A DNA stretch of 64,000 bases from Capitulum mitella (Eukaryota; Arthropoda; Thecostraca; Pollicipedomorpha; Pollicipedidae): NCBI GenBank assembly GCA_030062745.1, contig CP099839.1:43846796-43910795 (forward strand), read 5' to 3'. The notes below the pieces were generated by a model. It worked only from the letters and a program-made list of their open reading frames with translations, had not been told where the DNA came from and ran no database searches. Position 1 is the stretch's first letter, and every line of letters starts with the position of its first letter. Shown here in pieces: positions 10,932-13,900 of this stretch. The position numbers were made by a program, and so were the translations under genes.

Positions 10932-13900
10932 CTGCGGCAGCGTCGACGGAGCAGAGCGTCAGAGACTGGCAAAACGCACGGGGAACGGTACGGGTTCCAC
11001 CTACCCTGCGAACGACACCTCAGCAGTGACGGAACCGATCACCGGCTGACAAACACTAAGATGATCCCTCGATGCCGTGACATCGGGACTTCGGGAAGAT
11101 GATTTATCTATTTCAGGTAACTGCTGATGGTGACTGCTGCAGGTGCTGCAGTCAGATGCAGTCATAATGGTGGTTGCAGATCTTATGCAGATGCTTATGA
11201 TTGCAGCTCAGACGCAACCATAAGCAATCTGATGACTGGTGCAGGTAGACGATTGCTCATGAAACGAGCACAACTCGCTTGCGCGGAAATGACACCCTCG
11301 AATCCATGGCACGGAGATTCAAGAACGACACAAATTATTACGACAGTGACGAACTGCCCGACCGAAGTGTAACCAGTCAGGGTTACAGTTTGACATGCCA
11401 ATCTGGGATACATCCCCACTGAGAGTAAAGTCTGACCTGTCAGCCTGTGGTACACTCTGTCTCAAGGTATAGTTACGCATGCTGGATCTGACCTGCCATA
11501 CTGAGGTACACCCTGACCCAGGGAACAGCCCGATATGCCAGACTGAGTGACACCGTGTCCTAGGGTACACTCTGACCTGTCAGACCGGGCTACACCCTGT
11601 ACCGCCAGGCTGACAGGACAAACAAACAGACAGACAGGTCACAGCCAGACCTGCCAGGCTGAGGTCGACGGCGATGGCCGGGATTCGGGCCGCTTGGGGC
11701 GGCAGCAGGCGCAGCTTGTCCGCCGGCACCGGCTCCAGGCGGCCGTGGTCGATGAACCAGACTTGGGCGACACCACCAGACACCTCCAGCGCCGCCCCCC
11801 GGCTCCAGCCGCCTGCCGAGCACAGGCCGTCCACCAGGTCAACAGACAAACCAGACACACAGACAGCGCCGCACACCGGCTCCAGCCGACTGCCGAGCAC
11901 AGGCCGTCCACCAGGTCAACAGACAAACCAGACACACAGACAGCGCCGCCCCCCGGCTCCAGCCGCCTGCCGAGCACAGGCCGTCCACCAGGTCAACAGA
12001 CAAACCAGACACACAGACAGCGCCGCCCCCCGGCTCCAGCCGCCTGCCGAGCACAGGCCGTCCACCAGGTCAACAGACAAACCAGACACACAGACAGCGC
12101 CGCACACCGGCTCCAGCCGCCTGCCGAGCACAGGCCGTCCACCAGGTCAACAGACAAACCAGACACACAGACAGCGCCGCACACCGGCTCCAGCCGCCTG
12201 CCGAGCACAGGCCGTCCACCAGGTCAACAGACAAACCAGACACACAGACAGCGCCGCACACCGGCTCCAGCCGACTGCCGAGCACAGGCCGTCCACCAGG
12301 TCAACAGACAAACCAGACACCTCCAGCGCCGCCCCCCGGTTCCAGCCGCCTGCCGAGCACAGGCCGTCCACCAGGTCAACAGACAAACCAGACACACAGA
12401 CAGCGCCGCCCACCGGCTCCAGCCGACTGCCGAGGACAGACCGGCCGCAACGTCAAAATACGGCAAGACAGACATATTTCCAGCTACCTCGTGCGCGCAC
12501 GCACGTACTCACGCAGGCACGCACACACGCACGCACACACACATGTGGTGCATACGAAGGAGTTTAAGGCCGGCGTCAGAGTGGTGAACAATGCCGCGCG
12601 CGACCAGCGGCCGTGTTCCTGGCACACGCGGATAAACCGAGTGTAAAAACGGCCAAAACAGTAGGCCGTCCGTAACACGGGTCACGAAGCCCCAAAAACT
12701 GATCGCCTCCGACTTCGTGTGTCTGGCATGGCAAGACGTTTCGGGTTTTTTTCTCCGGTTCAAAGGGGGTTATCAAAGTCCTTCAGAAAGGACTGCAATC
12801 CAGTCCAAAGTTCTTCGCACCAAAAGGAATGCAACCCAATTCCAAATTCCACGAAACCGACAGGCTTGCGATCTAATCCGCAATCCATTTTGAGCCCCTT
12901 TTCACGAATAGTCCATTTTCGTTGAAAAAGCCACTGCGGTACACACCACGGTGCTTATTGTTTGTGATGGGGCTTGAGTGTAGGCCACAAACATTCACCC
13001 TTTTATGAATTTGTACCTATTTGGTGGGCCGACATTACGTTCCCAACATCCCAAATATCTTTTGTACCCCTCTTCCCTTCTAATTAGGCAGTTTGTTTGG
13101 GTTCAGGAAAAAACACTGTCTCGTTTTTCATGCAATACCTCACGCTCCGGCCAACTATTACCATCCTGAATACATGGGGTCCGGAGCAGGGCAGATGAGA
13201 CATGTCTCCCAACTTCTGATGAGAACGAGAGTCCCACCATTTTTTTTTCTTTTGGCAATGCCTGCCAGCACAATCAGCACAAGAGAAGTTTCTGTGCTCT
13301 GAGGCGTCCAAAAATCCTCTTACACAGCACCACTGGCCAATGCCGACTGAACTCACTGGCTGTGGCCCGTGTCATAACCAGGATTCGGTATAGGAGAGAG
13401 AGCACACATCTAGCGCCCACCCCATCAGCCCCAAATTTGGGAAATAAATGAGTTTGCATACTGTCCTGTGGTGTTACAATGACGGACGCACGTGTCAAGA
13501 TGAATGAATCGGATGGTTCTCGCTAGTCCTGCGAGCAGATCGGGCTCGATTCTCGATCGTTGCGTCGGGTCTTGTTATTTTGTGTACTTCTACCCTTTTT
13601 CCTATCGTTGGCAGGTTGACCTATGGCCTGGCAGGATGCCCCTAAGTGGCCTCAGCAGCGGGTCGGCGAGCGCTGGACAGTCGGCCCCACTATCACGATC
13701 ACAGCAAGAGGCGGCGACAACGTGGGGGACGCAGGGGACGCGTCTCTTCCAACATTCAGAATGTGGGGGACGTCACCCACAATCTTGGAGGGACCTTGCA
13801 TTCTAGTACCAATTCGCATTCTGGCGACAAAGCTAAATGCTCAAAATCGTTTGCAAACATCAAATGTTACCGGAACGGAGAAAAGACGATTCTACCGGAA

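Follow-up and report, generated by a model that had tools for sequence, protein, structure and literature searches.

Nine tandem copies of an intron-exon boundary at the start of exon 18 of a putative TDRD1-like gene in the barnacle Capitulum mitella

Introduction

Which acceptor starts an exon when the end of the preceding intron is repeated several times in a row? The question is raised by a locus of Capitulum mitella at which the 3' boundary of intron 17 in a Tudor-domain gene, read on the minus strand, is present nine times in tandem, i.e. as eight decoys (U1 to U8) followed by the predicted true copy (U9). One pre-mRNA thereby contains eight acceptors that share their 40 intronic bases, or nine if the diverged U1 is counted, and as the units differ by position and a few exonic bases, the influence of position and exon context would be separable from that of site strength without a construct. 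If the decoys are silent, the locus is a clean natural case of exon-proximal acceptor choice; if they are used, the splicing of a Tudor gene would vary with copy number. The window, that is the whole stretch of DNA analysed, spans 64,000 nucleotides (assembly GCA_030062745.1, contig CP099839.1, positions 43,846,796 to 43,910,795), and all coordinates are given within it. The exon numbers 17 and 18 and the name Tudor 4 are labels taken over from the first-pass annotation of the window.

Results

A MYND finger and several Tudor domains point to a TDRD1-like host gene, which by its relatives would be a gene of the germline small-RNA pathway. Because a Pfam search of two whole reading frames gave zero matches, the exons were joined by hand, a reading that covered the gene from the MYND exon to exon 19 outside the stretch from 20.4 to 16.4 kb. 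Profile matches in the gene are to MYND (2e-06), to a strong Tudor domain (4.8e-20) and to the Tudor domain of exons 17-19 (3.1e-11), both Tudors being above cut-off, while the middle two of the four Tudor-like stretches either reach 16.5 bits (Pfam cut-off 23) or go unrecognised. The solved structures closest to the spliced Tudor are the TDRD1 domains 4b9w (E 5.3e-05) and 4b9x (7e-05), from the mouse protein, followed by CG7008 and SND1, and the alignment with 4b9w crosses the 17/18 junction with a tryptophan in register. Within 15800-16130, the donor of exon 16 (phase 0) does not join in frame to the acceptor of exon 17 at 15831, whereas it would do so to AGs at 15875 and 15815; the mismatch may reflect an alternative acceptor, a sequence error or decay.

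Tandem Repeats Finder identifies a minisatellite at 11787-12443 (period 77, 8.6 copies, 95% matches, score 1188), and nine acceptors of the form TCGGCAG were located (Table 1). The first-pass annotation had described nine near-copies of the exon 18 3' splice site, each consisting of the end of the intron and about 37 exonic bases, and both the number, with eight decoys before U9, and the composition of the unit are borne out. Its unit length of 77 bp stands as the period and as the spacing throughout, except for the step from U2 to U3, which is 75 bp. From -40 to -1, U2-U9 are identical at every base, and TTGAC is found at the same place in all nine units, 27 before the exon by the script's count. 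The base at +1 is G in six units (U2, U4, U5, U6, U7 and U9) and T in the remaining three (U1, U3 and U8), and U1 has diverged, so that the sites, referred to earlier as identical, are strictly so only on the intronic side of U2-U9.

Table 1. Repeat units, exons and boundary copies at the 3' end of the gene.
Feature	Position	Strand	Remarks
U9, predicted true exon 18 boundary	11776..11852	-	last 40 intronic and first 37 exonic bases; exon begins at 11812
U8, nearest decoy acceptor	11853..11929	-	exonic sequence from 11889, with T at +1; shifts the frame and stops in exon 19; no Tudor match
U3-U7, decoy acceptors	11930..12314	-	first exonic bases 12274, 12197, 12120, 12043, 11966; stops inside extended exon; no Tudor match
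U2, decoy acceptor	12313..12389	-	first exonic base 12349; 77-base frame overlaps U3 by 2
U1, outermost decoy acceptor	12390..12466	-	first exonic base 12426; diverged intronic half
Exon 17	15653..15831	-	start set by the acceptor at 15831
Exon 18	11651..11812	-	162 nt; core of last Tudor domain; penultimate coding exon
Exon 19, coding part	10759..10931	-	ends with TAG
18-bp repeat of exon 17 donor CAG/GTACGA	15603..15664	-	copies at +18 (CAG/TTACGA) and +36 (CAG/GTGCGA)
Degenerate exon 18 donor copies (CTGGCAG/GTC)	11385..11650	-	+49, +74, +116, +214, +256, at start of intron 18; includes 42-mer array 11487-11599

The units fall into a graded order of similarity. U4 and U5, U6 and U7, and U3 and U8 are identical pairs, and pairwise differences among U3-U8 amount to 0-3 of 77 bases. 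U2 and U9 differ from these inner units at 6-10 of 77, partly through a 2-nt length change, and from each other by one mismatch over 77 bases; U2 carries CTGGAGGTGTCTGG, as does the true exon, where the inner units carry CTGTCTGTGTGTCTGG instead. U1 shows 14-22 differences (per 77) from the other units. The edge copies (U1, U2 and U9) are the least homogenised and the inner units near-identical, which is the pattern of concerted turnover. The intronic half of U1 is diverged yet related to the array units: at -40 to -14 it is identical at 15 of 27 bases, a level reached by 0.6% of positions 16100-12600, and when three joined units were aligned locally to 12640-12427 the score was 31, whereas 200 shuffles averaged 17.2 and peaked at 26.

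Within 1.5 kb upstream of the true boundary, eight copies match its 20 bases at 18 or more positions, whereas window positions beyond 6 kb predict 0.00, and the array is thus not due to chance. A 30-mer of the unit occurs eight times in the genome (477 Mb in 16 contigs), every time inside the array. The genome also gave at least 150 matches to the cuticle chitin-binding domain PF00379, with 150 of 627 candidates scored, which marks it as that of an arthropod and led to the rejection of amphioxus as its source. In amphioxus, minisatellites spanning intron-exon boundaries, on the acceptor or the donor side, have been termed 'mirages', and one of these was misassembled in a draft genome, according to PMC3087553. 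That the present copies were likewise collapsed or expanded by assembly is nevertheless very unlikely, given that the differences between units come in a non-alternating order, that the copies together extend over no more than about 0.7 kb and that a genome in 16 contigs suggests long reads or scaffolding.

Frame and Tudor score support U9 as the boundary of exon 18. Exon 17 ends in phase 1 (GTCTCAG/GTACGA), and joined to U9 it reads AAAVSG-GWSRGAALEVSGGVAQVWFIDHG and stays open through exon 19 to the TAG at 10759; with exon 18 starting at U9, exons 17 and 18 together give 44.4 bits over positions 11-121 of the PF00567 profile. Among the nine copies, U9 alone retains the VWFIDHG frame and the Tudor match, and a search with PF00567 found a Tudor match in none of the eight products spliced in silico from U1-U8, in agreement with the earlier proposal that use of a decoy would usually break Tudor 4. 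The stops attributed to the decoys were found within the extended exon for U1-U7, 191-576 nt before the 18/19 junction, but not for U8, which only shifts the frame and then meets an early stop in exon 19. Messages with stops such as those of U1-U7 are expected to undergo nonsense-mediated decay. The U8 message may escape it, and the nearest decoy would hence yield the message most likely to persist, because its stop comes only in exon 19. Exon 18 might also start elsewhere, for example at AAG/TC at 11761, leaving the array as an ordinary intronic minisatellite that merely resembles an acceptor. The AG at 11761 is in frame and retains a Tudor match of 32.9 bits; however, its use costs 11.5 bits of that match and the site scores -2.5 as compared to 0.63 for U9, which makes such a start highly improbable.

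The gene's 10 remaining acceptors served to build a site matrix, a small sample with little power. It assigns 0.63 to U9 and equally to U2 and U4-U7, -1.31 to U3 and U8, and -1.67 to U1, so that the scoring of each unit, which the first-pass annotation had suggested, places five decoys level with the true site and three below it. All 10 acceptors of the matrix, each scored with itself left out, exceed U9 (1.9-8.7), and intron 17 and exon 18 together hold 185 AGs, 30 of which reach its score, U9 and its five equals included. The exon 18 donor (CAG/gtctgg) is by eye poor compared to the other ten donors. That RNA structure hides the decoys was rejected on predicted pairing, in which U9 is no more open than they are. 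The matrix thus gives U9 no advantage over five decoys and the predicted pairing gives it none, and the features which remain in its favour are its exon-adjacent place and the bases of exon 18 itself.

These results bear on the reading in which splicing to the decoys occurs at an appreciable rate and the length of the array tunes the productive Tudor 4 message via frameshift and nonsense-mediated decay. U2-U8 share the 40 intronic bases of the true acceptor, the matrix score of U9 is low, and runs of six G are present only at U2, U6, U7 and U9, being absent at U1, U3, U4, U5 and U8. Such G-runs belong to a class of element reportedly important in the splicing of human CBS 844ins68. On the other hand, amphioxus mirages are described as not disturbing splicing in PMC3087553 and PMC3902484, and the distal copy is strongly favoured in CBS 844ins68 according to PMC2630376. 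The reading with decoy use and tuning appears unlikely.

The neighbouring boundaries carry local copies as well (Table 1). At the exon 17 donor, the copy at +18 has lost its GT and that at +36 has retained it, in frame; use of the latter would insert 12 residues and the Tudor match falls to 36.6 bits. At the exon 18 donor, five copies match at 14 or more of 20 bases within 1.5 kb on either side, all of them at +49 to +256 and with 0.06 expected, and GT is kept in three (+74, +214 and +256). When the boundaries of the gene, read by eye, were considered together, a local copy (at least 15/20 within 400 nt) was found at 3 of 22, and the background over gene-span positions is 13.6% (2106/15450), or 8.3% (1200/14465) after removal of the 77-bp array and two simple-repeat tracts. 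Boundary copies as a property of the whole gene were rejected on these figures, which show no enrichment. Since 3/22 lies near 8-14% in a repeat-rich gene, it is not claimed that splice sites attract repeats, and the cluster of three copied boundaries (exon 17 donor, exon 18 acceptor and exon 18 donor) is post hoc. A more ambitious reading counts tandem copies at three splice sites, with two extra donors for exon 17, eight extra acceptors and some five degenerate donors for exon 18, GT being kept in three of the latter. In this reading the array length would set the amount of full-length Tudor 4 message in the germline, and the minisatellite would act as a heritable splicing dial; we consider this improbable.

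Other repeats were observed in the same window, among them TTAGG-like repeats, which fit a barnacle source. The intron that holds the array also contains a 223-bp (TCTC)n/(TCTG)n tract at 14759-14981, rich in pyrimidines when read in the sense of the gene. At 25385-25580, before exon B, the next after the MYND exon, degenerate CAGGGAGCCGGAGCTG repeats are seen by eye, below the 15/20 threshold. A 35-bp minisatellite of 16.5 copies lies at 28755-29332, and its minus-strand unit, which ends in CTGGCTCTAG, may likewise contain an acceptor-like site.

The array and the donor copies could also be debris of relaxed constraint in a gene that is decaying, or whose last Tudor domain is. Exons 16 and 17 do not join in frame at the acceptor at 15831, exon 18 combines the lowest-scoring acceptor with a donor that is poor by eye, and the middle two Tudor-like stretches are below cut-off or unrecognised. 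Acceptors in frame with exon 16 do exist, however, and exons 17-19 are open, mutually in phase and give 44.4 bits for Tudor, which renders such decay distinctly unlikely.

Discussion

The array is probably a boundary-spanning minisatellite, or mirage, with mRNA formed mostly from U9, and is most likely near-neutral passenger DNA. Its tandem copies cross the intron-exon boundary, so that every unit contains some intronic and some exonic sequence, and would have arisen as a segment of about 40 bases from the end of the intron and about 37 from the start of the exon was duplicated in tandem again and again. As GTGTCTGG is present at the repeat junction as well as within the exon, the process may have started by duplication between such short direct repeats and continued through growth by unequal exchange. 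The identity of U4 with U5, U6 with U7 and U3 with U8, the position of U1 as the most diverged unit and the exon-like sequence shared by U2 and U9 all fit such a tandem turnover.

The choice of U9 can be understood through exon definition, in which the exon 18 donor would pair with the nearest acceptor across the 162-nt exon. The mature mRNA would then start exon 18 mostly at U9, because cross-exon pairing favours the nearest acceptor, while messages from the other copies would be frameshifted or truncated and those from U1-U7 open to nonsense-mediated decay. Such a position effect may keep the array from doing harm. Against the use of U9 stand its lowest acceptor score, the donor judged poor by eye, the lack of any advantage in openness and the in-frame AG at 11761. 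The first-pass annotation was right on the anatomy of the locus, whereas its proposals on function, namely that copy number differs between individuals and could tune the inclusion of Tudor 4, are unproven. Its view of the locus as a natural test of site choice has precedents in CBS 844ins68 and the amphioxus mirages, which weaken any claim to uniqueness.

Amphioxus mirages were described in Adh3 and in the globin genes BflGb6 and BflGb9 (PMC3087553), and PGBD5 and troponin C were added later (PMC3902484). In the former, units are 81-100% alike and 150-160 bp long in BflGb6 and 10-72 bp long in Adh3, edge units escape homogenisation, and in both papers RT-PCR is said to suggest regular splicing. 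The mirages resemble the Capitulum mitella array in being tandem copies of an intron-exon boundary that are least homogenised at the edges. The present array differs in being found in an arthropod, in nine copies, on one haplotype and from genome sequence alone, and in a gene with local copies at three neighbouring boundaries.

In human CBS 844ins68, the intron 7/exon 8 junction is duplicated and the distal copy strongly favoured according to PMC2630376, which uses the word 'donor'; Romano et al. 2002, cited there, has a 3' splice site in its title. Similar acceptors lie in a row in both cases, but the CBS insertion has two copies as compared to nine and is a polymorphism with studied splicing. 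The 31-bp VNTR of CBS is reported to have an effect on splicing. This repeat, c.1444_1467+7(16_21), has 16-21 copies and by its coordinates crosses the exon-intron border (PMC2630376); it resembles the present array as a minisatellite over such a border, although on the donor rather than the acceptor side. The likeness to TDRD1 (4b9w and 4b9x), in the Tudor structure match and the presence of MYND and Tudor in one gene, concerns the host gene only and implies no array. A limited search of the barnacle literature found no report of such a boundary array. Arrays of this kind have already been described as mirages, and the present case is a good new example, beyond the taxa of the papers cited here (amphioxus and human).
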